A stretch of DNA of 60,854 nucleotides from Thermoanaerobaculum sp. (GTDB lineage: Bacteria; Acidobacteriota; Thermoanaerobaculia; Multivoradales; UBA5704). Under the pieces are notes generated by a model. It ran no database searches, was not told where the DNA came from, and saw only the letters and a program-made list of their open reading frames with translations. Made by a program: the position numbers and the translations under genes. Location: assembly GCA_021154885.1 (NCBI GenBank), contig JAJKHS010000048.1:1-60854 (forward strand), given 5' to 3'. Positions 15,670 to 60,854 of the stretch are shown one piece after another (the stretch's first letter is position 1; every line of letters starts with the position of its first letter).

Positions 15670-18516
15670 CTAGAAGCAGGCCGTCACGGTGACGTCGTCG
15701 AGGAACCAGCCGGTGCTGGTCGTGCTGCAGTCGGTGATCGAGGCGAAGGCGATGCGTACCGACTTGCCGGCGCAGCCGGTGGTGAGACCGGTGGCCGCGT
15801 TGCAGGCCGCGTCGAGGTTCACCGTGGTGTTGGTGAAGGTGGAGGAGGCGCCGGTGAAGGCCGAGGCGCCCCCGGCGCCGGCCGGCGGGCAGGCGGTGGA
15901 GATGGTGCCGTTGAAGGTAGTGCCGGAGAGGATGGCCGCGGCCGGCACGAAGAAGTAGTTGGTGCCGCCGTCGACGGAGACCAGCAGCGTGCCGCCGTCG
16001 AAGCCGCTCTCGAAGCTCCGGCGATGCCAGAACGACAGCCGCGAAGCGGTGGCGCCGGCGGGGATGGCGATGCCGGTGGCGCCCTTGGGCTGCGCGAAGT
16101 TGAAGTCGTTGTTGACGTACGCCGCCGTGCAGGTGGAGCCGCCGTAGCGGAAGATGTTGGCGCCGCTATGGGCGGTGCAGGCCTGGACGCCGCGCCAGCT
16201 CGTGGTGGAGCCGCCGGAGACGAAGGTCCCCTTGGTCCAGTCGGAGAGGCCGGTGGCGGCGTCGAAGTTGTTGGTGTAGACCGTCTGGGTCGTGCAGCCG
16301 GTGCAGATCGAGGTGGTCGCCGAGCCTTGCGCCGAGTTGCCCGAATCGCAGGTACCGTTGGAGGCGGTGACGACGTAGAAGTAGGTCGTGTTGCAGGTCA
16401 GGCCAGAGTCGGCGAAGGAGGTCGTCGCCGAGGTGCCGACCTGGGTGTAGGGGCCGCCGCTGGTGGTGGCGCGGAAGATCTTGTAGGAGGTGGCGCCGGT
16501 GGACGCGGTCCACGAGACCGTGGTGCTGGTCTGCGTCGTCGCCGAGGTGGTGACGCCGGTGGGCGCCGCCGGCGGCGTGCAGGTGCAGACCGTGGTGGTC
16601 GCCGAGGCCTGGGCCGAGTTGCCCGAGTCGCAAGTGCCGTTGGAGGCGGTGACGACGTAGAAGAAGGTCGTGTTGCAGGCCAGGCCGGAGTCGGTGAAGG
16701 AGGTGGTCGCCGAGGTGCCGACCTGGGTGTAGGGGCCGCCGCTGGTGGTGGCGCGGAAGATCTTGTAGGAGGTGGCGCCGGAGACCGCGGTCCAGGAGAC
16801 CGTGGTGCTGGTCTGGCCCGTCGCCGAAGTGGTGACGCCGATGGGCGCCGCCGGCGGCGTGCAGGGCGCGCCCTCGGTCACGGCGGCGGTCCAGATCTCC
16901 TCCTTGCCGCCGCTGCGGCGGTCGGTCCAGGAGGGGAAGAAGCTGTTGGACCAGCCGGAGAGGGAGTTGTAGTCGCCGTACTGGTTGCCGCTGTCGGCGC
17001 CGGCCACGGTCTCGTCGGTCTGCGCCGTCGACACCTTGAAGGGCGCGCTCCAGGTGGCGCCGTCGTCCGCCGAGGTCTGATAGTAGACGTTGGTCTTCTT
17101 GCGGCCCGCATCGTCGATCGTGTCGTAGTAGATGATCGAGATGCGGCCGTTGCTCTCGTCGACCGCCATCGACTGGTTGAACTGGTCGTTGAGCGAGGCC
17201 TGGTTGTTGATCATCACCGGCGCGCCCCAGGTGGCGCCGCCGTCGCTGGAGCGGACGAACCAGATGCGGCTCTTGCAGGTGGAGGCGGTGTTGGTGCCCG
17301 GCTCGTTGGCGGGGCTGTTGCAGCCGGCGGCGCCGGTCTGGTCGGTCCAGGTCGCGTAGACCATGTTCTTGGTGGCGGTCCTGTAGGCGGCGCCGGTGGT
17401 GTAGATCAGCAGGCGGCGGCTGGCCATGGCCGGGATGCCGATGTCGAAGGAGTCGAAGGTGTTGGCCATGCGCACCGGCGCGCCGAAGCTCACGCCGCCG
17501 TTGGTCGACTTGGCGACGTAGACCTTGCTGCTGCCGGTGTCCGGCCAGAAGACGAAGACATCGCCCGCGCTGTTGGTCTTGACGTCGCAGCCGATGGCGG
17601 TGCCCGTGGTCTCGGCGCCGCTGATCTGGAGCGGCGTGCCCCAGGCGCCCCCCGGGCCGGTGCGGTGGTTGACGAACTGGGGGTTGCCGTTGTGCCAGCA
17701 GGCGTAGATGTTGTCCTTGAACGGCGAGGTGGAGCTGTGATCCACCCAGATCAGCTCTTTGTCGGTGTTGGTCTGGGTGCCGGAGAAGGTGGCGTCGAAG
17801 GTCCAGGTGGCGCCGCCGTTGGTCGACTTGTAGGCCCGCATGTGGAGGATCGTGCCGGCCGAGTTGATGCCGATGGTGGCGGACCAGGCCGTGCCGTCGC
17901 TCGTCCAGTCGACGGCGGGGTCGGAATGGAAGGCGTCGCCGGTCTGCAGCGCGAGGCTGGTCTGGCCCCAGGTGCCGCCGCCGTCGGAGGAGAAGTACTG
18001 CGCCTGCTGGCCGCTGCCGCCGATGTTGTTCGAGGCGCTGATGATCTTCAGCGGGTTGAGGAAGTTGATCCGGATGTCCGACTCGCTGCGCGATACCGTC
18101 TGGGCGCCGGAGAGGCGCAGGTTGACGCCGCCTGCCGTCTTCATGGGCGGGACGTCCGGACCGGGCCGGCCCGGCCTGAGATCGGGGTGGGTCTCCATCC
18201 ACTCGGCCACCTCTTTCAGCACCAGGGGATAGCCGCCCGTGGGGTCCGCGGCCGAGTACTTGATCTCGGGATGGGCCTTGCGCCACGCCACCCGCAGCCA
18301 CAGCGGCACCTGGATCTTGTCGTTGGCCTCCTCAGGGCGTAGCAGCGAGAAGTCCTGGTTGTCCAGGATGACCCTTTCGAGCGCGCTGCCGGCGGGAGCC
18401 TCGACCTTGTCGATCTGGGCCTTGAGCGTCGGCCAGGCGCCGATGGGACCCGCGAAGGCGGCCGCCAGCGGCAGAAGAGTAAAGATCAATAGTACGGTAA
18501 AAACTCTTTTCCTCAT
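15670..18516 (-). CDS. secreted BNR (sialidase-like) protein with two FN3 domains and C-terminal jelly-roll-like domain
   Basis: MRKRVFTVLLIFTLLPLAAA is a signal peptide; AGGAG lies ten bases before this ATG. Residues ~100-545 are a propeller with repeated Asp boxes (SSDGGGTW, STNGGATW, SADDGATW) and YFSSDGG, WTDRRSGG strands. Two fibronectin type III domains follow (~555-735), each with CTPPAAPxGVTTSAT and paired cysteines. Residues ~745-948 form a domain with NNFDAATGLSDW, FWHRRSFESGFDGG and STGWFLDDVTV, resembling MAM/immune-inhibitor-type carbohydrate- or protein-binding jelly rolls. The first 545 residues are closely related to the products at 18739-20424 and 20490-22187. The tail matches that of the metalloprotease at 22331-25864. 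No sialidase activity should be assumed. Confidence 0.85.
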   Translation of the reverse strand: MRKRVFTVLLIFTLLPLAAAFAGPIGAWPTLKAQIDKVEAPAGSALERVILDNQDFSLLRPEEANDKIQVPLWLRVAWRKAHPEIKYSAADPTGGYPLVLKEVAEWMETHPDLRPGRPGPDVPPMKTAGGVNLRLSGAQTVSRSESDIRINFLNPLKIISASNNIGGSGQQAQYFSSDGGGTWGQTSLALQTGDAFHSDPAVDWTSDGTAWSATIGINSAGTILHMRAYKSTNGGATWTFDATFSGTQTNTDKELIWVDHSSTSPFKDNIYACWHNGNPQFVNHRTGPGGAWGTPLQISGAETTGTAIGCDVKTNSAGDVFVFWPDTGSSKVYVAKSTNGGVSFGAPVRMANTFDSFDIGIPAMASRRLLIYTTGAAYRTATKNMVYATWTDQTGAAGCNSPANEPGTNTASTCKSRIWFVRSSDGGATWGAPVMINNQASLNDQFNQSMAVDESNGRISIIYYDTIDDAGRKKTNVYYQTSADDGATWSAPFKVSTAQTDETVAGADSGNQYGDYNSLSGWSNSFFPSWTDRRSGGKEEIWTAAVTEGAPCTPPAAPIGVTTSATGQTSTTVSWTAVSGATSYKIFRATTSGGPYTQVGTSATTSFTDSGLACNTTFFYVVTASNGTCDSGNSAQASATTTVCTCTPPAAPTGVTTSATTQTSTTVSWTASTGATSYKIFRATTSGGPYTQVGTSATTSFADSGLTCNTTYFYVVTASNGTCDSGNSAQGSATTSICTGCTTQTVYTNNFDAATGLSDWTKGTFVSGGSTTSWRGVQACTAHSGANIFRYGGSTCTAAYVNNDFNFAQPKGATGIAIPAGATASRLSFWHRRSFESGFDGGTLLVSVDGGTNYFFVPAAAILSGTTFNGTISTACPPAGAGGASAFTGASSTFTNTTVNLDAACNAATGLTTGCAGKSVRIAFASITDCSTTSTGWFLDDVTVTACF

Positions 18517-47246: not shown

Positions 47247-48536
47247 TCAAAAGTTGAACGAGTAGCCGAGGACGGCCGTGACCGTATTGATCGGCGGGGA
47301 CAGGTCAAAGGAGCTCTTGGTGCCGGTCGAGCTCGGCGGCGAGCTGTCCCCCGCCTGCCGTATGTATTCGGCGCGGAGGTTCCACTGCGATGGATTGTCG
47401 CCGACATGGAAAGCGAAACTGGCTCCGAGGGTCAGCGTCGTCAAGCGGCCGAGGCGGTAGTCGCTGGTGGCGAATTCCGGCGGGGCCAGGAAGCTGGAAA
47501 TGCCGGTGGTGAAGAAATCCGCGGCGCTCTGCCGGTAGTAGCGGATGTGTGGCTCGATGTACCAGTCGCCTTCCAGGTCATGCCGGTACTTGAGGTCGAG
47601 CGTGTTCGATCGTATTCCCCAGGTGTCCCGGTAATAGCGGTACGACGCGTAGCCGATGTCGTGCGTGAAGTGATAGGCGGAGCTCAAAAGCGCCGAAGTC
47701 CGGGTCCGTGTCGACGGCCGGTTGTCCGTCACCTCCGCCTGGGGCTCGCCGGAGAAGGGGTCCACGAGGCTGATGACTTTGTAGGGCTCGGTCAGATAAC
47801 CCTTCTCAAGGGTGCGGGACCCGTCCAGGGACAGGATCCAGCGGCGCGTCAGCACTCGCGACACGCCGAGCAGCAGGTTGGTGACCCGCTTGGAATTCGC
47901 TCTCTTGGAAACCTCGCTGCCGTCGGACAATCCGACCGGTGTTCCGCCGACCGGAAAGACGCTGTCATCATTGTAACCGCCGCCCGCGGTGACGGTGAGC
48001 AGCCGCTGCATCAGCTCGGCGGAAACCTTGCCGGTGATGCCGAGCGACTGGTAATCCTTCTCGCGCGAGGCGTGGACTCCGAAGGTCGAGGTGACGATCT
48101 TGCCCCAAGGTTTCTGCCATTCGCCGTCCAGCCCCGCGCGATGGTCCTGGAACCGCACCGACGGGATGCTGCCGGCGGGAACGTTGACGACCCGGCCCGA
48201 TGCGGTCGTCATCGTCTGCACGCTGCCCGAGGGCCGCGCACCGCTCGGCGAGGCGCCGGTGATGACGTCGATTCCGAGTTGGGCGGAGAGCGACTGGCCG
48301 TCGCCAAAGAGGCGCGTGGCGCGGACGATCGGCTCGTACACCTGAACCCGGCTCTGCTCGCCGTAATAGAGCGCCGTGTAGTCGACCTGGTTCGCCGCCG
48401 CCGCCGCCGCCGCCGCCGTCACCGCCGGCTCGGCCATCGCCGCGGACGGCACGAGGAGAAGGGCGAGCGCGGCCTTGCCCAGCCGTTCACGCAGTGCCGA
48501 AGTGGAGGAAGTGAAGCCCGCCGGTCCTAGTTGCAC
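47247..48536 (-). CDS. DUF3570 outer-membrane beta-barrel protein
   Basis: A signal peptide (LGKAALALLLVPSAAMA) is followed by an Ala-rich stretch encoded by about nine GCC codons in a row (48393-48418), then NQVDYTALYYGEQSRVQVYE and about 380 residues of alternating strands with aromatic ends, finishing VTAVLGYSFNF. A C-terminal phenylalanine and strand periodicity fit an outer-membrane beta-barrel. This matches DUF3570 as I know it, a family regularly encoded with DUF4266 and ApbE. The GTG at 48536 (GGAGGGGG seven to eight bases upstream) overlaps the 3' end of the DUF4266 gene by ten bases. Function unproven; a pore or assembly role is likely. Confidence 0.82.
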   Translation of the reverse strand: MQLGPAGFTSSTSALRERLGKAALALLLVPSAAMAEPAVTAAAAAAAANQVDYTALYYGEQSRVQVYEPIVRATRLFGDGQSLSAQLGIDVITGASPSGARPSGSVQTMTTASGRVVNVPAGSIPSVRFQDHRAGLDGEWQKPWGKIVTSTFGVHASREKDYQSLGITGKVSAELMQRLLTVTAGGGYNDDSVFPVGGTPVGLSDGSEVSKRANSKRVTNLLLGVSRVLTRRWILSLDGSRTLEKGYLTEPYKVISLVDPFSGEPQAEVTDNRPSTRTRTSALLSSAYHFTHDIGYASYRYYRDTWGIRSNTLDLKYRHDLEGDWYIEPHIRYYRQSAADFFTTGISSFLAPPEFATSDYRLGRLTTLTLGASFAFHVGDNPSQWNLRAEYIRQAGDSSPPSSTGTKSSFDLSPPINTVTAVLGYSFNF

Positions 48537-48757
48537 CCGCAGCCCCCTCCGCCGACGTCCTGCCCCCCGGTCGAGGCCTCTTTGCTGAAATAGATGTGCT
48601 CGTCGATGGAGTGCAGCATGGGGCAGGGAATGAGCCTCATCCCCTTCTCGGCGAGAAGGTCTCGATCCCAGGGTCGAACGGTGGCACAGCCGCCGGCCAG
48701 GACCGCCAGCGCCAGGGCGAGGGCGAGCCGCAAGGGCCACTTCGCCGGTTTTTTCAT
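48527..48757 (-). CDS. DUF4266 small lipoprotein with Gly/Cys tail
   Basis: The 76-residue protein has a lipoprotein signal (LRLALALALAVLAGGCATV, lipobox AGGC), then WDRDLLAEKGMRLIP, HSIDEHIYFSKEASTGG and a C-terminal GGGGCGCN. The glycine-rich tail with two cysteines is the strongest feature of DUF4266 and may bind metal or be modified. Its ATG overlaps the TlpA stop by four bases (ATGA at 48754-48757), and its 3' end overlaps the DUF3570 start. Such tight packing suggests the three proteins are made in fixed proportion. No function is established; the neighbouring ApbE suggests extracytoplasmic redox chemistry. Confidence 0.82.
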   Translation of the reverse strand: MKKPAKWPLRLALALALAVLAGGCATVRPWDRDLLAEKGMRLIPCPMLHSIDEHIYFSKEASTGGQDVGGGGCGCN

Positions 48758-49317
48758 TTGGTCATCTCCTCCTTGATCTGCTTCTTGATCTGCTTCTCGA
48801 TCGTGTCGGCATCCCGCAGGTCAAACCCGGCATGGGAGTAGACCAGGCGTCCTGACCGGCTCACGAGAAAGCTCGACGGCATGGCCGTCACGTTGAACGC
48901 TTCAGCCGTTTTTCCCTCGGGGTCGAACGCTACGATGAAGGGCGGCGAGAACTGGCGCAGGAACGCCTGCGCCAGATCCCGATCCTTGTCCAGATTGATC
49001 GCGACGACCACCAGGCCATTCTCCCCGTAGCGTTCCGACATCGTGCTCAACCACGGAAACGACTGTCGGCAGGGCCCGCACCACGAGGCCCAGAAATCGA
49101 CGAGCACCACCTTCGTCCGCAGCCCATCGAGCGCTACGGTGCCGGTGCGCGTGGGAAGCTCGAAGCTCGCGGCGAGGGGAGGATCGGGGCTCACGCCGTG
49201 CGCCGTCCTGGCGCGCGCCGGGAGCGCGAGAGAGAGCAGCAGCAGAAGGAGCGCAGCGCAGCGTCGCGCCGCGAGGGAAGCCGCGCCAGGCCCGGTTGAT
49301 TTCTTTTGCCTCTTCAC
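48754..49317 (-). CDS. TlpA/ResA-like thioredoxin, exported
   Basis: The 187-residue protein has an N-terminal hydrophobic signal (ALLLLLLSLALPARA) and a thioredoxin domain with VVLVDFWASWCGPCRQSFPW, the active-site CGPC, VVVAINLDKDRDLAQAFL and the cis-proline segment TAMPSSFLVSRSGRLVYSHA. It would reduce disulfides, or protect cysteines, of exported proteins; the four-cysteine-rich partners nearby (DUF4266) are obvious candidates. It starts with GTG at 49317, AGGG seven bases upstream. It is the first gene of the operon, coupled to DUF4266 by an ATGA overlap. Confidence 0.9.
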   Translation of the reverse strand: MKRQKKSTGPGAASLAARRCAALLLLLLSLALPARARTAHGVSPDPPLAASFELPTRTGTVALDGLRTKVVLVDFWASWCGPCRQSFPWLSTMSERYGENGLVVVAINLDKDRDLAQAFLRQFSPPFIVAFDPEGKTAEAFNVTAMPSSFLVSRSGRLVYSHAGFDLRDADTIEKQIKKQIKEEMTK

Positions 49318-49510: not shown

Positions 49511-50668
49511 TTACTGCGCCTTGACCTCCGTCCACAGCCGATCCACCAACTGCGTCGTCTCGCCGAGGTCCTCGATCAGCTCGCAACGGTTGAGGACCTC
49601 CTGGGGAGGGTAGATCGAGGGGTCGTTCTTGATCTTGCCGTCGATCAGCGGCAGGGCAGCCTGGTTGGCGCAGGCGTAGTGGACGTGGTTGACGATCTTC
49701 GCCGCGATCTCGGGCTGCATCACGAAGTCGAGGAAGGCGTAGGCGGCGTCGACGTTGCGGGCGCCCTTGGGGATCGCCAGGTTGTCGATCCACAGGGTGC
49801 CCCCCTCTTTGGGAATCACGTACGCGAGGCGGCCGGCGGAGCGGGCCACGGCTTCGGCGAGCTCGCCGTTGTAGCCCTGGGAAAGGTCCACGTCGCCGGC
49901 GGCGAGGAGGTTGGCGAAGTCCGAGCTGTTGAAAGTGCGCACCAGCGGCTTCTGTTTCTTGAGCATCTCGGCGGCCCGGCGCAGGATGGCGGGATCTTTC
50001 TCGTTGATCGATCGGCCCATCAGTCTCAGGGCCGCGCCGAAGACCTCCCGTTGATCGTCCAGCATCAGGATGCGGCCGGCGTGGCGCGGGTCGAAGAGGG
50101 CCGCCCAACTATCTACGGGCGCGACGGGCGCCTGGACCTTCGTCTTGTCGTAGCCGATCCCCGTCGTCCCCCAGAGATAGGGGACGGAGTGGCCGTTGCC
50201 CGGGTCGTATTGCTGATTGAGGAATCGCGGATCGAGGTTCTTCAGGTGGGGGAGGCGGCCATGGTCGAGCGGCCGGACGAGCCCCTGGGGAATGAGGATC
50301 TTGAGCATGTAATCCGAGGGCACCGCCACGTCGTAGTCCGCGACGCCCGACTGGAGCTTGGCCAGCACGGCCTCGTTCGAGTCGTAGGTGTCCACGTTGG
50401 CGTGGATGCCCGTGCGCCGCTCGAATTCGTTGACCACTTCCTGCGGCAGGTAGTTGGTCCAGATGTAGATGTTGACGACCTTGGGAGCGGGCCCGGTGTT
50501 GCCGCCGCAGGCGGTAACCAGGACGGCGGCGGCGAGGAGGACGATAAGGACAACAGGGACTTCAGAGACAGCAGGGACAAAGAAGCCCCAGCCTCGGCGG
50601 TATCTTTGGTGTCCCTGTCGTCCCTGTAGTCCCTGGTGTCCCTGCTGTCCCTGCTGTCCCTTCTTCAT
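49511..50668 (-). CDS. potD: spermidine/putrescine ABC transporter substrate-binding protein
   Basis: The 385-residue lipoprotein binds polyamines outside the membrane. The mature region begins near VVNIYIWTNYLPQEVVNEFE and holds YDVAVPSDYMLKILIPQGL, WGTTGIGYDKTKV, VDLSQGYNGELAEA and GGTLWIDNLAIPKGARN, the PotD/PotF landmarks. The lipobox is VLVTACGG (Cys ~55). The N-terminus is odd: residues 2-22 read GQQGQQGHQGLQGRQGHQ-like, encoded by a GGGACNNCA repeat, before the signal core VVLIVLLAAAVLVTAC. The gene starts directly after the potC stop (CTGTAGATG). Start codon and frame are clear, so the insertion is real in this sequence. Confidence 0.95.
   Translation of the reverse strand: MKKGQQGQQGHQGLQGRQGHQRYRRGWGFFVPAVSEVPVVLIVLLAAAVLVTACGGNTGPAPKVVNIYIWTNYLPQEVVNEFERRTGIHANVDTYDSNEAVLAKLQSGVADYDVAVPSDYMLKILIPQGLVRPLDHGRLPHLKNLDPRFLNQQYDPGNGHSVPYLWGTTGIGYDKTKVQAPVAPVDSWAALFDPRHAGRILMLDDQREVFGAALRLMGRSINEKDPAILRRAAEMLKKQKPLVRTFNSSDFANLLAAGDVDLSQGYNGELAEAVARSAGRLAYVIPKEGGTLWIDNLAIPKGARNVDAAYAFLDFVMQPEIAAKIVNHVHYACANQAALPLIDGKIKNDPSIYPPQEVLNRCELIEDLGETTQLVDRLWTEVKAQ
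50548..50660. repeat. inverted arrays of GGGAC-N4 units over the potD start
   Basis: On the plus strand GGACAACAGGGACTTCAGAG and GCAGGGAC (50548-50578) form one array. The opposite array, 50611-50660, reads GTGTCCCTGTCGTCCCTGTA and so on, i.e. the inverted form with about six units. The arrays encode the potD N-terminal tail and part of its hydrophobic segment. Such GGGACxxCA repeats look like a mobile or slippage-prone family. Confidence 0.65.
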
Positions 50669-51448
50669 CTACAGCTCCTTCTGGAGCAGCCGGTGAGCCG
50701 CGACGATGAGGACGATCGTCACCGCCAGCAGCAGGGTCGAGACGGCGTTGACCTCGGGGGTGACCCCCACCTTGAGCATCGAGTAGATGTGGAGCGGCAG
50801 GGTGGTGGCGCCCACGCCGGCCACGAAGGAGGTGATCACGTAGTCGTCGATCGAGAGGGTGAAGACGAGGAGGGCGCTGGCCACGATCCCCGGCAGGGCG
50901 AGCGGCAGGGTCACCCGCCGGAAAGTCTCGAAGGGTCCCGCTCCGAGGTCGCGGGCCGCCTCTTCGAGCGCGGGATCGAGCCCCGCCAGCCGCGCCCGCA
51001 CCACCAGGGCCACGTAGGAAACGCTGAACACGACGTGAGCGATCACCACCGTCGCCAGGGACAGCCGCAGCTCGACGGCGCCAAAGAAGGTCACCAGCGC
51101 CGCACCCAGGACGACCTCGGGAATGATCACCGGCAGGTAGAGCAGCGCCTGGGTGGCGCCCTTGCCGCGGAACGCGGGACGGGCGAGCGCCAGAGCCGCG
51201 GGCGTGCCGAGGACGACGGCGGCGGCCGTCGTGATCCCGGCCACCTCCAGGCTGTTGCGCACGGCGCGCAGCAGGAGGCCGTCGTCCAGGAGCCGGCGAT
51301 ACCAGTCGAGCGTGAAGCCCTGCCAGAAGGCCGTCTGCCGGGCGGCGTTGAACGAGAAGACCACCAGGATGGCGATGGGTGCGTAGAGGAAGAGGTAGAC
51401 GAGCGCCGTGTGCGCCGCGAGGAGCCGGCGCGGACCGCGGCCGGTCAC
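50669..51448 (-). CDS. potC: spermidine/putrescine ABC transporter permease PotC
   Basis: The 259-residue inner-membrane permease has six hydrophobic segments and the EAA loop EEAARDLGAGPFETFRRVTL that contacts PotA. It opens with LVYLFLYAPIAILVVFSFN and has LYLPVIIPEVVLGAALV and FTLSIDDYVITSFVAG, typical of PotC/PotI. GTG at 51448 overlaps the potB stop (GTGA). It forms the polyamine uptake system with PotA, PotB and PotD; potD follows with no gap. Confidence 0.95.
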   Translation of the reverse strand: MTGRGPRRLLAAHTALVYLFLYAPIAILVVFSFNAARQTAFWQGFTLDWYRRLLDDGLLLRAVRNSLEVAGITTAAAVVLGTPAALALARPAFRGKGATQALLYLPVIIPEVVLGAALVTFFGAVELRLSLATVVIAHVVFSVSYVALVVRARLAGLDPALEEAARDLGAGPFETFRRVTLPLALPGIVASALLVFTLSIDDYVITSFVAGVGATTLPLHIYSMLKVGVTPEVNAVSTLLLAVTIVLIVAAHRLLQKEL

Positions 51449-52338
51449 AGCGGGTCCTCCCCGCCCCGGCGCCGCGCCAGGGCGGCGTAGCCGAGGAGCA
51501 GGAGGAGCACGGCCGTCGTCAGCTCGAAAGCCAGAGCCGCGCCGAAGGGTTGGTTGCGGGCGACCGCGAACTGGTTCTGGATCAGGTTGCCGAGCAGCAT
51601 GCTGCGGGCACCGCCCAGAAGGTCCGAGACCACGAACTGCCCCAGGCTGGGAATGAAGACGAGGACGATCCCCGCCGCCAGCCCCGGCAGGGTGAGCGGG
51701 AGGGTCACTCGCCGGAAGGTCTGGACGCGGCCGGCCCCCAGGTCCGAAGCGGCTTCGAGGAGCGAGCGGTCGAGCTTCTCCAGCGAGGCGAAGAGAGGGA
51801 GGATCATGAACGGCAGCTCGCCGTAGACGAGGCCGATCATCACCGCCGTCTGCGTGTAGAGCAGCTCCAGAGGATGGCGCAGGAGCCCGCTCCCCACCAG
51901 CACGAGGTTGAGCAGCCCCTCGCTGCGCAGGATGAACATCCAGGCGTAGGTGCGGATCAGGAAGCTGGTCCAGAACGGGACCACCACCAGCCCCAGCAGC
52001 AGACCCTTCCACCGCCGCGGCGCCAGCAGCGCCAGGTAGTACGCGATGGGGAAGCTGACGACGATGCAGAGGATGGTGGTCGCGACCGCCATCCACAACG
52101 ATCGCCAGCCGATCTTCAGGAAGATCCCGTCGAGCGAGCGGGCGTAGTTGGCGAGGAACGCGCCGGAGCGCAGGTACTCTCCCAGATTCGGGATCGATCG
52201 CAGGCCGCCATAGATTCCGCGCTCGGCGAAGCTGATGCCGAGCATGAGGATCAGCGGCACGAGGAAGAAGACGCCCAGGACCAGCCAGGTGGGCAGGAGG
52301 AGGGGGACGGTGCGGCTTGCCTTGGAGGAGGAGGGCAT
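51445..52338 (-). CDS. potB: spermidine/putrescine ABC transporter permease PotB
   Basis: The 297-residue permease has six transmembrane segments, PTWLVLGVFFLVPLILMLGI near the start, VVPFWTSFLIRTYAWMFILR and the EAA loop EAASDLGAGRVQTFRRVTLP. These are PotB/PotH features. I start at the ATG at 52338; upstream codons of the open frame overlap the divergent TA gene. Only 40 bases separate the start from mntA on the other strand, and the region contains GTATAC near 52351-52356. It pairs with PotC and is energised by PotA, encoded further upstream beyond the TA pair. Confidence 0.94.
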   Translation of the reverse strand: MPSSSKASRTVPLLLPTWLVLGVFFLVPLILMLGISFAERGIYGGLRSIPNLGEYLRSGAFLANYARSLDGIFLKIGWRSLWMAVATTILCIVVSFPIAYYLALLAPRRWKGLLLGLVVVPFWTSFLIRTYAWMFILRSEGLLNLVLVGSGLLRHPLELLYTQTAVMIGLVYGELPFMILPLFASLEKLDRSLLEAASDLGAGRVQTFRRVTLPLTLPGLAAGIVLVFIPSLGQFVVSDLLGGARSMLLGNLIQNQFAVARNQPFGAALAFELTTAVLLLLLGYAALARRRGGEDPL

Positions 52339-52378
52339 CGCGCGCAGATCGTATACTGTACCCGCAGGAGGTGTCTCC

Positions 52379-52801
52379 TTGGACGAAGCCAACCTCAAGA
52401 AGCTGGAGCAGTACTTCACCGAGCGTCCTGATCTCGGGGTCGCATCCGTCTACCTTTTTGGTAGTCACGCCGAGGGAAGGGCGCATCGCGAGAGCGACGT
52501 GGACGTCGGGATCCTCCTTCTGTGGGAGCGCCATCCTACACAGGACGACCGCTTCGACATGCGAGTCCAGTTGGGATCCGAGCTGATCGCCGTGCTTCAT
52601 CACAACGAAGTCGACGTCGTCATCCTCAACGATGCCCCGCCTCTCTTGGGCCGCAAGATCATCTATGACGGTATCCGGGTGTTCCTCGGCGATCCCGAGG
52701 TCGACCACGCCTACGTGCGGGACGTTCAGATCCGGGCTGCGGATCTGGAGCCCTGGCTGCGGCGGTTGCGCAAGCTCCAATTGGAGGCGTTGGCGCGATG
52801 A
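52379..52801 (+). CDS. mntA: MntA-like nucleotidyltransferase antitoxin
   Basis: The 140-residue protein carries the minimal nucleotidyltransferase signature FGSHAEGRAHRESDVDVGIL (G-S-x-x-x-G and two aspartates) and VDVVILNDAPPLL with the third acidic residue. In HepT/MntA systems the antitoxin adds AMP units to a tyrosine of HepT. TTG at 52379 is preceded by AGGAGG seven bases away, an excellent match. It overlaps hepT by four bases (ATGA at 52798-52801). The pair lies on the opposite strand between potA and potB. Confidence 0.87.
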   Translation: MDEANLKKLEQYFTERPDLGVASVYLFGSHAEGRAHRESDVDVGILLLWERHPTQDDRFDMRVQLGSELIAVLHHNEVDVVILNDAPPLLGRKIIYDGIRVFLGDPEVDHAYVRDVQIRAADLEPWLRRLRKLQLEALAR

Positions 52802-53201
52802 GCCCCGTGATAGAGCGGCTGGCGGAGCTGCGGCGCCACCTCGACCACCTCCGTGAGCTGCGTCCACGAGTGACGAGCTCAGAGGATCTGCGCCGCGATC
52901 TTTCGCTGCACAACGACGTTCTGTTCTCTCTGCTGACAGTCTGCCAGTTGGTGATCGACATCGCCGGCGACCTCTCCGCCCGTCGCGGCCTGCGCATCCC
53001 AGATTACACCGAGGCGGTGCGCAATCTGTCGGCGTTCGAGGAGTTTCCTGCTACCGTGACCCGAACCCTGGCGCAATTGCCGGGATTCCGTAACGTGCTC
53101 ATTCATGAGTATGTGAACCTTGACCTGCGCCGTGCCGTCGAAGCGCTGGACCGCCTTGGCCCCGTGGAGGAGTTCCTGGAGATCGTCCGGGCCATGGACG
53201 T

Positions 53202-53205
<4 letters not shown>
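52798..53205 (+). CDS. hepT: HepT-like RNase toxin
   Basis: The 135-residue all-helical protein has the HEPN signature RNVLIHEY (R-x4-H-x-Y), with arginine, histidine and tyrosine all present, near residue 100. The N-terminal half (LAELRRHLDHLRELR, LLTVCQLVIDIAGDLSAR) fits the four-helix bundle. The tyrosine is the expected AMP-transfer target of MntA. Active HepT cuts tRNA or mRNA and stops growth. Its stop overlaps the potA stop on the other strand (53202-53205). Both key residues of toxin and antitoxin are intact, so the pair should be functional. Confidence 0.88.
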
Positions 53206-54200
<995 letters not shown>

Positions 54201-54250
54201 GCGGCGCGAATGATACACGCCCGTCGTTCAGGAGCTGGGGCTCAGGGATT

Positions 54251-54284
54251 GGGGGGCGGCCGGTCCCGATACCGGCCGCCCCCC
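54251..54284. terminator. strong hairpin between the Pls-like gene and potA
   Basis: GGGGGGCGGCCGGT (54251-54264) and its exact complement (54271-54284) form a 14-bp stem with a six-base loop. It lies after the Pls-like stop and before potA, on the path of the same transcript. There is no U-tract on either side, so it may stall, or only partly terminate, transcription. Confidence 0.55.
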
Positions 54285-54317
54285 TCGAAAACAGCGCGCC
54301 TTTGAGGATGCGTCCTG

Positions 54318-57300
54318 CTACCTCGCCAAAGCCCTACGCAGCGGGGGCGCCGAAGTTGCACTCGCCGGCGCCGCTTCCGGCGAGCGCGCCGGCCGCGTCG
54401 GAGCGCCGACGTAGTATTGGCCCGGCAGCAGCGTCTCGTGTTTCATCACCACGCTGCCATCCTCGACGCGGGCGCCCTCTCCGATGTTCGCGCCATAGAG
54501 CAGCACCGCGCCGTTGCCCACCGTGCAGCGCGCCCCGAAGTACGCGGGGGCGATCTTCAACACCCGGTCCTCGAAGCTGTGGAGCTGCAACAGGCAGGAG
54601 ACCGTGGCGTCGTCGCCGACGTTGAGCATGTCGGGATCGACCACCTGCGCGAAGCGGGTGCCCAGCACCACCCGCCGGCCGATGCGGGCGCCGATGGCGC
54701 GCAGCCACCAGATCATGAACGGCGTGCCCTCCAGGCTCGCCAGGCTCCCCCGGACATAGGCGGCCCACACCACGTAGAGGAAGTCCCAGCGGCTGCACCA
54801 GCACGACCACAGGGGATGCCGCCCTTCGCGGACGCGCCCGAGGAGCGCCCACTTGGCGAGCAGGACGAGCGCCACCAGGAAGGCGCCCTCGGCCATGGTG
54901 AAGCCGGGCAGGGTCAGCGCGAAGAAGACGGCCCGCGGCTCCGTGGCGTGCCAGTGGGGGAGCGCCTTGAACCAGAGGATGCCGAGCAGCGCCGGGATCA
55001 CCGGGATCAGCCCGCGCAGATACTCCCAGAAGAGCCGCGTCGCGTAGCGGTACCAGGCCGGATCGTGGGTCAGCCGCCGGTCGCTCTCGACCACCTCGCG
55101 CCGCGGCAGCTCGAACGCCGGATGCCCGAACCACGAGGTGCCCGGCCGGATGCGGCTGGCGTCGGCCACGGTCGAGATCCCCACCAGGATCTCGGTCGGC
55201 AGCTCGGCGCCGCCGGGGATCACGACGTGGTTGCCGAGGAACGTGTTCTTCGACAGCGTCGTGCGGGCGCAGGTAATCGTTCCCCGGTGCAGCCACGGCC
55301 GGCCGAGGTAGATGCCGTCGGCGAAGAAGCTCTCCTCGCCGATCTCGACCAGCTCCGGGATCACCTCCATGATCGTGCTGATCTCGCATTTCCGGCCCAC
55401 GCGCATCCCCGCCATCCGCAGCCACCCCGGCCAGAGCAGCGTGCCGCTCAGGGCGTTGCCCGCGGACTCCAGCAGGCTCTCCTTGACGAAGACCACGAGC
55501 GAGGTCCAGCCGTACAGAGGGTAGGTGCCCGGCCGCACGGAGCCAAGCAGGCGAACGGCGAGCGCCTCCACCGGCAGGGCGAGAAAAAAGCCGGCGATGA
55601 CGATGCCGAGCGCGAGGAGGACCGGCCTGGCAGTGAAGGACGAGGGCTCATAGAGCGCTTCGAGCCAGGAGGTTCCGTAGAGGAGCTCGCACGCCGCCGC
55701 CAGCAGCATCAGCGGCAGCCAGGCGAGCTGGGCGGCGAGGAAGCGTGCGAGCAGGAGCATGGCGCCGTGCAGGGCCGCGGGCCACGGCCGCTCGCGGGCC
55801 GCGGTTCCGGAGGGGATCGGCGCCGGCGGCGCCGCACCTTGGAACGCCGCCGGGACACCGTGCCACGTCTCGCCGGCGGGGACCGTCGCGTGCGACGGCA
55901 GCATCGAGAGCGCCGTGAGCACGGCGCCTGCCTCCATGGCGCTGTGCGGCGCCATGCGGGACCGCGTGTCGAGCGTGGAGTTTTCGCCGATCGTCACCGG
56001 CCCGAGGATCAGCTCCTGGTCTTCGAACTCGAGCAGCCCCAGCGAGGCGTCGCGCCCGATCGTCACGCCGTCGCCGATCTCCAGCAGGTCCCAGCCGCCG
56101 GCCCGCAGATCGACCCCGCGGTGGATATGCACGTCCCGCCCGATGCGGGCCCCCAGCGCGCGCAGGAACGCGTTCTTGAACACGGTGCCCTCGACCAGCT
56201 CCCAGGGGATGGCGCGGGCGAGCTGCTGCACGATCCAGTTGCGCAGGTAGAAGCTCCCCATGTAGGGATGCCGGCCCGCCCGGTAACGGCCGATGAGCAG
56301 TTTCTTCGCCGTCACCGTCGCCAGCAGCGCGAGCGGCGCGTAGACCGCCAGCGCGGCGAGCGCCATTCCCGGAATCAGCAGCAGGAAGCCGGTGATCCCG
56401 ATGTCGTCCGCGACCGCCGGCAGGAGGCGGAAGGCGATCAGCCAGGCGGCGGCCGCGGCGGCGACGACCGTGGCGAGGATCCAGCCGAGCTGCGCGATGG
56501 CGACGAGCGGCGCCTGCGCGGAGATCTTGCGCTCGCCACGGTGGCGGTCGGAGAGGTCCTGGCGGTCGGCGCTGGACGGGCCCCCGGCGACGCGCTGGGC
56601 GAGGGCCGCCACCGTGCGCGCCTCGTAGACGTCGCGCACAGTCAGCGTCGAGGTGAGCTCCTGCTTGCGGAGGCTGGAGATCGCCTGCGCCGCGAGCAGC
56701 GAGTTGCCGTCGAGGTCAAGGAAGAAGTCGTCGTGAATGGAGATCGCGGCACCGTGCCGGAGCTGGTCCGAGAAGGCGCGCGCCACCAGGCGCTCGGCCT
56801 CGTTGCGCGGCGGCACCAGCTCGCGGTCCGCCGCCGCCTCCGGCAGCAGGTCGGGCAGCGCCGCCCGGTTGAGCTTGCCGCTCGACGGGCTCGCCGGCAG
56901 CGCCGCCATGAAGCCGTAGCGCACCGGCAGCATGGGCTCCGGCAGACGGGCTCGCAGCTCCGCGCGCAGGCCGTCCATGTCGGGCGGCACTCCGGGCTCG
57001 GTCACCAGGAACGCGACCAGCTCCTTGCCGCCTCCCACCTCCTGCACCTTGCAGGCCGCCGCGCGTACGCCCGGCAGCGTGCACAGCTCCGCCTCGACGG
57101 CGGAGAGCTCGATGCGATGGCCGCGGATCTTGACCTGCGCGTCCGAGCGCCCGAGATAGAGGTAGTCGCCGGTGTGGAGCTGGCGGACGAGGTCGCCCGT
57201 GCGGTAGAGGCGCCCCAGGCGCGGGTGGTCGACGAACTTCTCGTGCGTCAGGTCGGGCCGGTTCAGGTAGCCGCGCGTCACGGCCTCGCCGCCGATGCAG

Positions 57301-58385
57301 AGCTCGCCGGTCTCCCCCGGCGCCACCTCGTCGAGCGCCTCGTCGAGGGCCCAGGCCAGGGCGTTGCGCAACGGGCGACCGATGGTGACCGGCTCTCCCG
57401 CCCACACCCGCGTCCGCACCACGGTGACCGTGCACTCGGTGGGACCGTAGCCGTTCTCCAGCCAGCGTCCCGGGGCCCAGCGGTTGGCGACGTCGGCGGG
57501 CAGCTCTTCGCCGCCCAGGTAGAGGAGGCGCAGCTCCGGCAGCTCGCGCGCCGGGTCGTCGCAGGCGCACATGCGCAGCAGGGTGGGAGGCGGGCAGAAG
57601 ACGGTGATCCGCTCGTCGCGCAGCCACGGCACGAGGTCCGGCCCCAGCCGCACCACGTCGTCGTTCATCACCACCATCGTCGCGCCGCAGCCGAAGGCGA
57701 GCCAGATCTCCTCGACCGAGGAGTCGTAGGCGGCGGAGGAGCTCTGGCCGACGCGGTCGGAGGGCCCAAGCCCGAAGTAGTCCGCGTCGGAGAGGACGAG
57801 GTTCACGACGCTGTGATGCTCGACCATCACGCCCTTCGGGTTGCCCGTGGTGCCCGAGGTGTAGATCAGGTAGCAGAGCGTCGCGGGCGAGAGCCACGGC
57901 CGGCGGGGCAGCGGAAGTCCGGCCGGCGAAAATCCGGCCGGCTGCACCTCGTCCGCCAACAGCGTGCGCTCGGCCGGGAAGCCGAGCTCCGCGAGCCGGC
58001 CGCGCAGCTCCTCGGAGGTGATCGCGGCGACCGCCCCCGAATCCTCCAGGACGAAGCGGAGCCGCTCCGGCCGAATGCCCGGCTCGACGCAGGTGTAGGC
58101 GCCCCCGGCCTTCATCACCGCCAGTTGTGCCACGTAGACGAGGTGGTCGCGGCGCGGCAGGAGGATGGCGACCACGCTCTCGCCCGAGACGAACGGCGCG
58201 AGGCGCGCCGCGAGGGCGTTCGCCAGCCGCTCGACCTCCGCATAGGTGAATCGCCTGCGAGGCGAGGCGCCGGCCGGAGGGACCTCGATCGCGACCTGGT
58301 CCGGCAGGCGGCGGGCGACGGCTTCGAAGACCTCGTGCAGGAGCTGGGGACCGGGCTCGCGCACGGTGTTGCTTTCCGGATTCAT
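54318..58385 (-). CDS. Pls/PosA-family NRPS (adenylation-PCP-membrane-hexapeptide domains)
   Basis: Domains in order: adenylation (residues ~15-510: YTSGTTGNPKGVMVEHH, NGYGPTECTV, LYRTGDLV, GRSDAQVKIRGHRIEL, SSGKLNRAALP with Lys ~504); carrier domain (~525-595: DDFFLDLDGNSLLAAQ, phosphopantetheine Ser ~562); then ~760 residues of six or more transmembrane segments alternating with left-handed beta-helix (hexapeptide) acyltransferase-like blocks (LGARIGRDVHIHRGVD, IGEGARVEDG). This is the layout of epsilon-polylysine synthetase and relatives, which polymerise a basic amino acid. My hand alignment of the specificity pocket reads D-S-E-C-Y-G-G-V-T plus Lys; Glu at the third position is seen with cationic substrates. 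It begins six bases after the spermidine-synthase-like stop. Confidence 0.9.
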   Translation of the reverse strand: MNPESNTVREPGPQLLHEVFEAVARRLPDQVAIEVPPAGASPRRRFTYAEVERLANALAARLAPFVSGESVVAILLPRRDHLVYVAQLAVMKAGGAYTCVEPGIRPERLRFVLEDSGAVAAITSEELRGRLAELGFPAERTLLADEVQPAGFSPAGLPLPRRPWLSPATLCYLIYTSGTTGNPKGVMVEHHSVVNLVLSDADYFGLGPSDRVGQSSSAAYDSSVEEIWLAFGCGATMVVMNDDVVRLGPDLVPWLRDERITVFCPPPTLLRMCACDDPARELPELRLLYLGGEELPADVANRWAPGRWLENGYGPTECTVTVVRTRVWAGEPVTIGRPLRNALAWALDEALDEVAPGETGELCIGGEAVTRGYLNRPDLTHEKFVDHPRLGRLYRTGDLVRQLHTGDYLYLGRSDAQVKIRGHRIELSAVEAELCTLPGVRAAACKVQEVGGGKELVAFLVTEPGVPPDMDGLRAELRARLPEPMLPVRYGFMAALPASPSSGKLNRAALPDLLPEAAADRELVPPRNEAERLVARAFSDQLRHGAAISIHDDFFLDLDGNSLLAAQAISSLRKQELTSTLTVRDVYEARTVAALAQRVAGGPSSADRQDLSDRHRGERKISAQAPLVAIAQLGWILATVVAAAAAAWLIAFRLLPAVADDIGITGFLLLIPGMALAALAVYAPLALLATVTAKKLLIGRYRAGRHPYMGSFYLRNWIVQQLARAIPWELVEGTVFKNAFLRALGARIGRDVHIHRGVDLRAGGWDLLEIGDGVTIGRDASLGLLEFEDQELILGPVTIGENSTLDTRSRMAPHSAMEAGAVLTALSMLPSHATVPAGETWHGVPAAFQGAAPPAPIPSGTAARERPWPAALHGAMLLLARFLAAQLAWLPLMLLAAACELLYGTSWLEALYEPSSFTARPVLLALGIVIAGFFLALPVEALAVRLLGSVRPGTYPLYGWTSLVVFVKESLLESAGNALSGTLLWPGWLRMAGMRVGRKCEISTIMEVIPELVEIGEESFFADGIYLGRPWLHRGTITCARTTLSKNTFLGNHVVIPGGAELPTEILVGISTVADASRIRPGTSWFGHPAFELPRREVVESDRRLTHDPAWYRYATRLFWEYLRGLIPVIPALLGILWFKALPHWHATEPRAVFFALTLPGFTMAEGAFLVALVLLAKWALLGRVREGRHPLWSCWCSRWDFLYVVWAAYVRGSLASLEGTPFMIWWLRAIGARIGRRVVLGTRFAQVVDPDMLNVGDDATVSCLLQLHSFEDRVLKIAPAYFGARCTVGNGAVLLYGANIGEGARVEDGSVVMKHETLLPGQYYVGAPTRPARSPEAAPASATSAPPLRRALAR

Positions 58386-58391
58386 GATGGA

Positions 58392-60818
58392 CTACTGACC
58401 CTTTGCGACGTCGAACAGATTGCGTGCCGTATTGAACTCCAGAACCGGCCGGTCGTCCAGGTTCAGGGCGTCGAACCCCCCGAGGAACATGTCCACCTGG
58501 TCGGGCCGCACGACGGGAGAGCCCATGAGCTCGAGGACGTTTCTGCCGGAGAAACCGACCCCTGTGAAGTCGCGTTCGAGGGCGGGGCTGCGCAGCCTCG
58601 CCTTCACCTGCTGCAACTCGGCCTGAAGGGGCTGCGGCGAGGCGAGGACGATCACGTCCGTCCCCACCTGCCAGAAGGTGACGTAGGGGAAGACGGCGTG
58701 GATCGTGTGGATCATCATCCGGAAGTCGTTCTTCTTCATATCGTAGAGCGGCACCCACTGGCAGAGGATGCCGTCGTCGGCCAGCCGGTTCGCCGCCGAG
58801 CGGTAGAACTCCCGGGTGAACAGCCCCGAGGCCCCCGCCACCCAGATGTTGGGCGGCTCGGAGGTGATGACGTCGAAGCGCTGCCCCTGGACGCTGTCCA
58901 TGAAATTGCGGCCGTCGTTGGTCACCACCCGCACCCGGGGGTCGTCCAGCGCATGGTCGTTGAACGGGCCGAAGTGGGTGCGGGCCGCCTCCACCACCCG
59001 CGGATCGATCTCCACCACCGTGATCTCCCGCGGCTCGGGGTGGTGGACCACGGCCCGCAGCGTGAAGCCGCCGCCCAGACCGATGTTCAGCACCCGCCGG
59101 GGGTTGGGATGGAACAGCAGGGGCAGGTGGCCGAGCAGGAGCTGCGTGCGGTTGTCCGTCGCCGCCGAGCTGGCGTCCGTCTTGCCGTTGTGCTTGAGCA
59201 GGAGGTACGGTCCCGCGCGCACGACGGCCACCTGGCCGTAGAAGCCCTGGCGTTCCTCCACCAGCTTCAGCGTCCTGACCTCGGCCTCGTACCCCGGCCA
59301 GTTGCCGATGCGCAGGCCATAGTAGTAGAGAGCGTGAAAGGGGGACGCGACGGGGAGCACGGCCGGCGACAGGACCACCGCTCCGGCCAGCAGCGCCGCC
59401 ACGACCGTGGCCGGCAGCCAGCGCCGGGACCCGGACGATCCGGGCGAGGGAGACAGCGCGAGGAAGACGGCCGCGGCCAAGGCATAGATCGCCACCGTCA
59501 CCGTCATCAGCCCGGAGAGGCCCCAGACCGGCAGCAGCACGAATTCGGCCAGGAACGCCCCCGCGACACCCCCCAGCGTATTGGCAAAGAACGCTCGCCC
59601 GGCCGCGGCCCCCCGCTCACCGCCGGAGCGGGTGGCGATGCGCACCACCAGGGGGAAAGCGGCCCCCAGGGCCACCGTCGCCAGGAAGACGATCAGCAGG
59701 ATGAGCAGGCATACCGTGAGCTGAAAGGGATTATAGCCGCGGCTCCACTGGAAGATGCGGAAGTAGGCCCGGGAGAAGGGCTCCGCCGAGCGGAACACCG
59801 CCACGCCGCAGAGCGCCACGGCCGCGTAGAGCCCGGCCACGACGGCGTAGGGATCGCGGATGCGGTCGATGAAGCGCGACATCAGAAGGCTGCCGACGCC
59901 GATGCCGGTCAGGAAGCCGGCGAGCACCGTCGCGGTGGAGAAGACGTGGGTGCCGTTGAGCAACGAGAAGAAACGGTTCCAGCCGGTCTCCAGAGCCAAG
60001 GCCGCGCCACCGGAGAGGAAGAAGGTGACGAGGACGAGCCGCAGCCGCGCCGGTGATGCGGCCGTGGCGATGGCGGCACCGGCGGCGTCCGGCCCGGCCG
60101 GGGTTTTCTCCTGACGCTCCTGCCGCTCTTTCCTGGCCTTCCGCCCCTTCTTCCCGGGCGCCGGGCGCTCCCGCTGGCGCAGGAGGATGAACACCCCCAG
60201 GTCCACCGCCCCGATGCCCAGGATCCAGGTCGACGCCGAGAGCCCGCACTGCGGCACCAGGAAGAACCCGGCGAGGAGCGCCCCCAGGGCCGCGCCCAGC
60301 GTGTCCAGCCCGTAGACCAGCGACACTCCGCTCCCCAGGCGCCCCGGTTCGCCGGCCGCGAGGCGCACGGCCAGGGGGAAGACGGCGCCGATGACGAGCG
60401 TCGGCGCCAGCATGCAGACGAGCACCACGGCAAACTTTACCAGCGCCGAGGGGAGGGGGGACAGGCTCGCGGGAGCGACGGCGAGGAAGAGCTCGCGGCC
60501 CAGGTCGAGGACGGGAAGGCTCACCGCCACCCAGGCGCCGAGGAGGATCTGCAGCCATCCCAGCAGCCGCCAGGGGCGCTCGGCGTGGTCCGCCACCCGG
60601 CCTCCCCACAGGGCGCCCCCGGCGAGCCCGAGCAGGAAGACGGAGATGACGCTGCTGAACACCGCGGCCGTGGAGCCGAAGAGATAGGAGACCTTGCGCA
60701 GCCAGAGGACCTGGCATGCGAGAGAGAGAAGGTTGGTGAAGAAGACCGTCGCGAGCAGCAGGCTTCTGCCGCCCGGCGCCGAAGCGGGCGGGACGGTCTG
60801 GCGGGAGACTCGCTTCAT
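58392..60818 (-). CDS. membrane-fused spermidine synthase-like protein
   Basis: The 808-residue protein has an N-terminal MFS/SpeE-associated membrane region with two sets of hydrophobic helices (residues ~18-200 and ~250-480; LWLRKVSYLFGSTAAVFSSV, VFPLAVRLAAGEPGRLG), and a C-terminal spermidine synthase-like Rossmann domain (~540-800). The latter has VLNIGLGGGFTLRAVVHHP, ITVVEIDPRVVEAA, VVTNDGRNFM and EPPNIWVAGASGLFTREFYR. The DGRNFM and gate-like EPPN residues suggest binding of decarboxylated SAM or SAM, but the acidic residues that fix a polyamine acceptor are not all clear. True activity is unknown. It is first in the operon with the Pls-like gene. The basic insert GKKGRKARKERQERQEK lies in a loop. 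Confidence 0.88.
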   Translation of the reverse strand: MKRVSRQTVPPASAPGGRSLLLATVFFTNLLSLACQVLWLRKVSYLFGSTAAVFSSVISVFLLGLAGGALWGGRVADHAERPWRLLGWLQILLGAWVAVSLPVLDLGRELFLAVAPASLSPLPSALVKFAVVLVCMLAPTLVIGAVFPLAVRLAAGEPGRLGSGVSLVYGLDTLGAALGALLAGFFLVPQCGLSASTWILGIGAVDLGVFILLRQRERPAPGKKGRKARKERQERQEKTPAGPDAAGAAIATAASPARLRLVLVTFFLSGGAALALETGWNRFFSLLNGTHVFSTATVLAGFLTGIGVGSLLMSRFIDRIRDPYAVVAGLYAAVALCGVAVFRSAEPFSRAYFRIFQWSRGYNPFQLTVCLLILLIVFLATVALGAAFPLVVRIATRSGGERGAAAGRAFFANTLGGVAGAFLAEFVLLPVWGLSGLMTVTVAIYALAAAVFLALSPSPGSSGSRRWLPATVVAALLAGAVVLSPAVLPVASPFHALYYYGLRIGNWPGYEAEVRTLKLVEERQGFYGQVAVVRAGPYLLLKHNGKTDASSAATDNRTQLLLGHLPLLFHPNPRRVLNIGLGGGFTLRAVVHHPEPREITVVEIDPRVVEAARTHFGPFNDHALDDPRVRVVTNDGRNFMDSVQGQRFDVITSEPPNIWVAGASGLFTREFYRSAANRLADDGILCQWVPLYDMKKNDFRMMIHTIHAVFPYVTFWQVGTDVIVLASPQPLQAELQQVKARLRSPALERDFTGVGFSGRNVLELMGSPVVRPDQVDMFLGGFDALNLDDRPVLEFNTARNLFDVAKGQ

Positions 60819-60854
60819 GGAGCGGGGAGTGTAGCAGCTCCTCCCTGGGACCGC

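Follow-up and report, generated by a model that had tools for sequence, protein, structure and literature searches.

To our knowledge, very few cationic homopolymers have been described from nature; such polymers have preservative uses and are possible antifungals. The closest described systems are Pls of Streptomyces albulus, which makes epsilon-poly-L-lysine, and PosA of Acinetobacter baumannii, which makes delta-poly-L-ornithine. Here, we analysed a stretch of 60,854 nucleotides (the window), which forms the entire contig C48 of an 8.2 Mb genome in 161 contigs, and which encodes a membrane synthetase with the same domain order and carrier serine as these two enzymes (Table 1). The likeness extends to the membrane part, with six transmembrane (TM) helices, arranged as three pairs, and three beta-helix repeats, as in the PosA model described in excerpts of PMC10522769. 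In contrast to this shared plan, the window enzyme falls into a clade separate from six acidobacterial Pls/PosA-type enzymes, which stood in for PosA and Pls in our alignment; it is 36–45% identical to them in the adenylation (A) domain and 28–33% in the terminal domain, and has the specificity pocket DSECYGGVTK.

Table 1 Features of the synthetase locus and its neighbours (positions and strands as in the window)
Feature	Position	Strand	Remarks
Synthetase, single-module, membrane, 1355 aa	54318..58385	-	A domain, carrier, terminal domain with six TM helices and three beta-helices; Pls/PosA-like, DSECYGGVTK clade
Adenylation domain, residues ~20–511	56853..58328	-	Domain and pocket reading
Carrier (PP-binding) domain, residues 534–599	56589..56786	-	Ser562
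Terminal domain, residues 605–1335	54381..56573	-	TM-helix pair plus left-handed beta-helix, three times
MFS-type membrane part fused to spermidine-synthase-like Rossmann domain (NF037959), 808 aa	58392..60818	-	
14-bp GC hairpin, synthetase/potA intergenic	54251..54284	-	
PotA-like ABC ATPase, neighbour	53202..54218	-	
MNT-type nucleotidyltransferase (Polbeta/NTP_transf_2) ORF	52235..52801	+	Between potA and potB
HepT-like ORF	52798..53205	+	Between potA and potB
PotB-like permease, neighbour	51445..52419	-	True start probably internal
PotC-like permease, neighbour	50669..51445	-	Start approximate
PotD-like binding protein, neighbour	49511..50668	-	True start probably downstream

On balance, we think it likely that this synthetase works in the manner of the epsilon-poly-lysine and delta-poly-ornithine enzymes and builds a cationic poly(amino acid) from a larger basic monomer that L-arginine mimics, and that the adjacent SpeE-like and pot genes lie outside the pathway. 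The polymer would be made at the inner membrane, where the A domain would activate an amino acid using ATP and attach it to the phosphopantetheine arm carried by Ser562; unit after unit would be joined by the terminal domain, a three-fold beta-helix embedded in the membrane. The building block would be basic, larger than Lys and Arg-like.

The synthetase frame reads through without an internal stop, and domain searches assigned to it one A domain, one carrier domain and the membrane terminal domain, with no condensation or thioesterase domain. The family profile TIGR02353 matched residues 637–1329 (E = 1e-114). The analysis bears out the domain order given in an earlier note written from the sequence alone, along with its two ORFs, their coordinates and strand, and the six-base gap that follows the TAG stop of the SpeE-like gene on the minus strand and precedes the ATG of the synthetase. 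The protein scores 384.4 bits where the curated cut-off is 423.1, which makes it a relative rather than an equivalog of Pls/PosA. The note's description of an epsilon-polylysine-type polymer synthetase is thus right about the Pls/PosA-like make-up and the basic-type pocket, but overstates the family assignment, as the score lies below the cut-off and the enzyme in a separate clade; we place it in a sister clade of Pls/PosA and regard cationic poly(amino acid) synthesis as its probable activity.

The carrier serine Ser562 is conserved in all 84 clade sequences listed, and hydropathy resolves the terminal domain into six membrane regions, or three pairs. An AlphaFold2 model based on 45 aligned terminal domains (pLDDT 92.1, pTM 0.92) consists of a pair of long helices plus a beta-helix, occurring three times. 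The best Foldseek matches were hexapeptide acetyltransferases (E ~2e-4), and VIA-align superposed such folds with a Z of ~12 over ~120 residues, mostly one beta-helix; among Foldseek's best 50 matches, none was a solved structure spanning the whole terminal domain. Fifty terminal-domain positions are common to at least 95% of the clade listed and to all six Pls/PosA-type sequences, including Q1267, H1269, F1271, E1272, D1273 and R1274 (a Q-x-H-x-F-E-D-R motif) and K1277. Judged from this sequence conservation, the joining chemistry is therefore likely to be the same in both groups.

Five planctomycete-type members (L106, L111, L115, L132 and L136) have synthetases of 1672–1781 aa with a C-terminal DUF418 domain, and four of the five fusions also match HGSNAT_cat, a membrane acetyltransferase family. 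In a Candidatus Eisenbacteria bin, a phosphopantetheinyl transferase gene of the ACPS family (L149:13995-14612, plus strand) lies ~40 nt past the synthetase.

By alignment, the ten Stachelhaus positions of the A domain are D221, S222, E225, C264, Y289, G291, G312, V320, T321 and K504. The Glu noticed earlier is thus present, at the third specificity position, and together with Asp at position 1 agrees with what excerpts of PMC10522769 state for known members. The column assignment was checked on two other loci, since the same columns return DMEHNGTVSK, the published PosA code, in L046 and, in L048, a code close to that published for beta-lysine. The window code differs from that of PosA at positions 2, 4, 5, 7 and 9, and from the Lys-type code of L049–L051 at five positions or more. 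An identical code, DSECYGGVTK, is already published for one protein, OFZ39577.1 of Bdellovibrionales (Patel and Gulick 2023; PMC10522769), which we compared with the window enzyme by this code only. According to excerpts of the same paper, its A domain, the sole part assayed, did not prefer any of four diamino acids and activated L-Arg, modestly. As read from these residues, the pocket is of basic type, as the earlier note expected, but points away from Lys, Orn, Dab and Dap, and the building block is probably outside these usual ones.

To see how widely this pocket occurs, we assembled 88 loci: the best 80 of an alignment-based contig scan, six acidobacterial loci and two congeners. The set contains duplicates (L043 equals L151; L099 and L100 are nearly identical). 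The pocket was read in 84 sequences, namely 83 loci and the window, after dropping L145, L155, L157, L158 and L159, in which no single frame covers the A domain. DSECYGGVTK is present in 77 of these 84 clade sequences listed, across eleven named phyla and records without a phylum name, and is unchanged down to 37.5% identity with the window protein. As the best 80 loci were seeded with DS[SA]VEE or N[GS][YW]GPTEC, code positions 1–3 and 7 were largely selected for, and positions 4, 5, 6, 8, 9 and 10 were unselected. One pocket kept over eleven named phyla would imply a single conserved product, yet to be described.

By record title, the 88 loci listed include 32 from Planctomycetota, 11 from Pseudomonadota, seven from Verrucomicrobiota, six from Actinomycetota, four from Gemmatimonadota and two from Bdellovibrionota; Acidobacteriota contribute six by title, plus six from the same-phylum set and two from the same genus; five more phyla have one each, and the remainder carry no phylum in the title. 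Some titles are metagenome bin names and may be wrong (the Chitinophaga bin L133, for example, is almost identical to a planctomycete bin). Named isolates with a clade enzyme include Sphingomonas pruni, Kutzneria buriramensis, Amycolatopsis taiwanensis, Streptomyces nanshensis, Planosporangium flavigriseum and Novosphingobium.

Within the phylum, TIGR02353 separates two kinds of enzyme. Among 297 sampled genomes, with three candidates per genome scored, eight had a match above the cut-off (565–687 bits), and seven full-length loci in six genomes, the window included, scored 339–398 bits; one genome (G260) carries both kinds. Over its length, the window protein is 49–52% identical to the lower-scoring group and 32–37% to six higher-scoring sequences. 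A FastTree phylogeny of 83 rows (local support values, no bootstrap) placed the six Pls/PosA-type sequences and the 77 clade members on opposite sides of a branch that has full local support. By its code and its position on this tree, the window enzyme belongs to what we define here as the DSECYGGVTK clade, and groups most closely, again with full local support, with a congener, a Candidatus Eisenbacteria member, two Bdellovibrionota and one Myxococcota. Its nearest lineages therefore include the one with the assayed A domain, OFZ39577.1 itself being outside the tree. We found no report of this breadth; in a literature search at the level of titles and abstract openings, covering mostly open journals and no preprints, only PMC10522769 was on point, and no measurement on a full-length clade enzyme turned up.

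We then considered the two neighbouring systems, which the earlier note had joined with the synthetase into three linked polycation functions. The SpeE-like protein passes the family of fused MFS/spermidine synthase proteins, NF037959, with 136 bits against a cut-off of 40. In contrast, it falls below the cut-offs of all five aminopropyltransferase families matched in NCBIfam (159.6/472, 114.6/260, 97.3/249.55, 62.6/304 and 48.3/537 bits). In alignment with the solved spermidine synthases of Thermotoga and human, the Asp of GGGD is replaced by Gly, and the two Asp of DSTD/DSSD by Glu and Asn. The acidic residues of GGGD and DS(T/S)D are what we take to be catalytic positions of spermidine synthases, and with all of them substituted the gene does not qualify as a spermidine synthase (SpeE). 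A literature search on MFS and spermidine synthase, covering mostly open journals and no preprints, returned nothing on point.

For the four genes on the other side, the best NCBIfam names are PotA, PotB, PotC and PotD, so that an ATPase, two permeases and a binding protein are present. The complete PotABCD importer proposed earlier thus stands as four Pot-like genes on one strand, but all four miss their equivalog cut-offs (PotA 362.8/482, PotB 257.5/348, PotC 259.4/326 and PotD 254.2/582 bits), and potA is split from potBCD by the HepT-like/MNT-type pair, a toxin-antitoxin pair by family. Between synthetase and potA, a 61-nt stretch containing the hairpin has a folding energy of -38.4 kcal/mol (z = -2.9; 2 of 200 shuffles equally low) and lacks a T run; this hairpin is absent from the terminators called by consensus scan, and a consensus scan of 54100–60854 found no promoter.

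Conservation of the neighbourhood was then surveyed. At E = 1e-4, none of the 88 clade loci listed gave a match for PotB, PotC or PotD; the PotA matches were four ABC ATPases 0.7–7 kb off the synthetase, and the SpeE-like protein had one weak match (L045; 59 bits, 26% identity, 4.5 kb away on the opposite strand); distances run to the called synthetase start, which may be set too far upstream. One congener has a gene for a DUF5916 protein 102 nt before the synthetase. In the other, the upstream DUF5916 gene is 2 kb away, beyond two ORFs on the opposite strand. Both congener contigs terminate within the synthetase, and PotD had no match in either assembly (82% and 93% complete). In a genome of the same family (G352), the SpeE-like orthologue (49% identical, with the same SEPPNIW motif) adjoins a Castor/Pollux-type ion channel gene, with leucyl-tRNA synthetase slightly further, and the pot genes are contiguous on a different contig. 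There, the PotB alignment starts 59 nt past the end of PotA, too short for the HepT/MNT pair, and the genome yielded no such synthetase, the best TIGR02353 match being 20 bits. The adjacency of SpeE-like gene, synthetase and pot thus looks like chance, or like a feature of this one lineage, and the SpeE-like gene is probably a neighbour and not a functional partner.

Both the window (47247-49317) and Novosphingobium fuchskuhlense (L130:1535-4346) have a pair of genes for a thioredoxin-like and a DUF3570 protein no more than ~8 kb from the synthetase; this was seen in one of the 88 loci listed and is probably chance.

A different gene recurs upstream of the synthetase in relatives. In 39 of the 84 loci listed with at least 500 nt upstream (four of the 88 have less), a SET-domain methyltransferase gene lies directly upstream on the same strand, abutting or overlapping the called synthetase start (e.g. 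L116:1187-1741, L097:9433-9978 and L160:9438-9965). The SET profile was built on 19 loci, which it then refound together with 22 further ones; one of these 41 matches lies beyond 400 nt from the synthetase. Pfam SET is present in 22 of the 41 upstream genes scanned, and by strict patterns the proteins have C-x-C-(G/N) in 40, (T/S)FD(Y/F) in 29 and an H(S/T/A)CxPN-type motif in 25 of 41. No SET gene was found upstream of the six Pls/PosA-type loci. By phylum, in counts that include two loci outside the 39, the neighbour occurs in 24 of 32 Planctomycetota loci listed, five of six Actinomycetota, four of seven Verrucomicrobiota, two of six titled Acidobacteriota, none of 11 Pseudomonadota, and none of the eight further same-phylum or same-genus loci. 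On the tree, the SET label requires 12 changes against a shuffled mean of ~28, so the neighbour would have been gained or lost many times. At loci without it, no Pfam family exceeds four of the 76 nearest genes; Peptidase_S51 (cyanophycinase-like) accounts for two of the 76, and a Peptidase_S51 partner was found neither by simple motif search nor in ten candidates scanned singly.

The SET enzyme may methylate the polymer or the monomer. A general role as substrate source was rejected: in a genome search covering 25 of the 88 loci and nine other genomes, 16 of the 26 genomes without a SET neighbour had no SET match at all. These include the window genome, both congeners, three from Novosphingobium, a Sphingomonas bin and G352, itself lacking such a synthetase; the other ten, among them Sphingomonas pruni and Novosphingobium fuchskuhlense, have a SET match elsewhere. 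SET-free genomes keep the same pocket, which argues that SET acts after activation. As the window genome gave no SET match, any tailoring by methylation would be a trait of other lineages. An abstract-level search, with few subscription journals and no preprints, found no published report of SET coupled to a polymer synthetase; in bacteria, such a partnership with a poly(amino acid) synthetase would be a surprising role for the SET fold.

DltA-type systems charge teichoic acids, and the terminal domain could likewise transfer basic aminoacyl groups singly, with a sugar, a membrane lipid or a wall polymer as acceptor, and make no homopolymer. Its beta-helix domains do resemble sugar and xenobiotic acyltransferases, and the planctomycete-type fusions to DUF418, four in five with HGSNAT_cat, would fit as well. 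Since its side chain offers no free amine, L-Arg is unable to form side-chain isopeptides, which, like the TIGR02353 score below cut-off, counts against the favoured reading. We nevertheless consider single transfer unlikely, given the 50 terminal-domain positions held in common with Pls/PosA types and a TM and beta-helix plan equal to that of PosA, a polymeriser according to excerpts of PMC10522769. The same excerpts call the Arg activation by the Bdellovibrionales domain modest, which also counts against the favoured reading.

A product already known, whether epsilon-polylysine, delta-polyornithine, poly-Dab or poly-Dap, would be in keeping with Asp and Glu at code positions 1 and 3; we judge it quite improbable in view of the departures from the PosA and Lys-type codes and of the identical Bdellovibrionales pocket, which in excerpts of PMC10522769 did not prefer four diamino acids. 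Only a very small chance is left to the linkage proposed in the earlier note, by which the SpeE-like protein, synthetase and Pot importer would form one polyamine or polycation system, for example one polymerising an aminopropylated amino acid. The six-base spacing speaks for it, and an aminopropylated amino acid would suit a larger basic substrate, but the lost acidic positions (now Gly, Glu and Asn) and missing conservation weaken such a monomer; the HepT/MNT pair sits within pot, and the hairpin ahead of it. We rejected this triad because genome searches and the 88 loci listed, a neighbourhood survey of the kind that the note had proposed, revealed no conserved linkage beyond one weak, distant SpeE-like match, an outcome that the note itself had named as refuting its reading: the arrangement recurs in neither congener, and in G352 the SpeE-like and pot orthologues live apart from any such synthetase.

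Extending the favoured cationic poly(amino acid) reading from the window enzyme to its clade is more tentative. It is possible, though doubtful in this full form, that members across the eleven named phyla make an undescribed cationic poly(amino acid) from one conserved monomer, that many planctomycetes, verrucomicrobia and actinomycetes N-methylate the chain or monomer through the upstream SET enzyme and sometimes acetylate it through fused DUF418/HGSNAT-type domains, and that the window lineage leaves it unmethylated.

Several further features of the window and its genome were recorded. The N terminus of the PotD ORF (its first ~20 residues) corresponds to a 9-bp tandem repeat (about TGTCCCTGC) at 50607–50661, at the potC/potD junction, and this repeat stretch has 25 more short matches within the same genome. 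Elsewhere in the window, 16300–16865 holds a 282-bp tandem duplicate, its two copies 92% alike. The window genome (G000) is very NRPS-rich, with at least 131 AMP-binding matches from 129 of 182 candidates scored, the window's own A domain not counted, and with open frames of up to 8246 aa; in relatives of the same order (G238:C18 and G334:C18), open frames exceed 17,000 aa.
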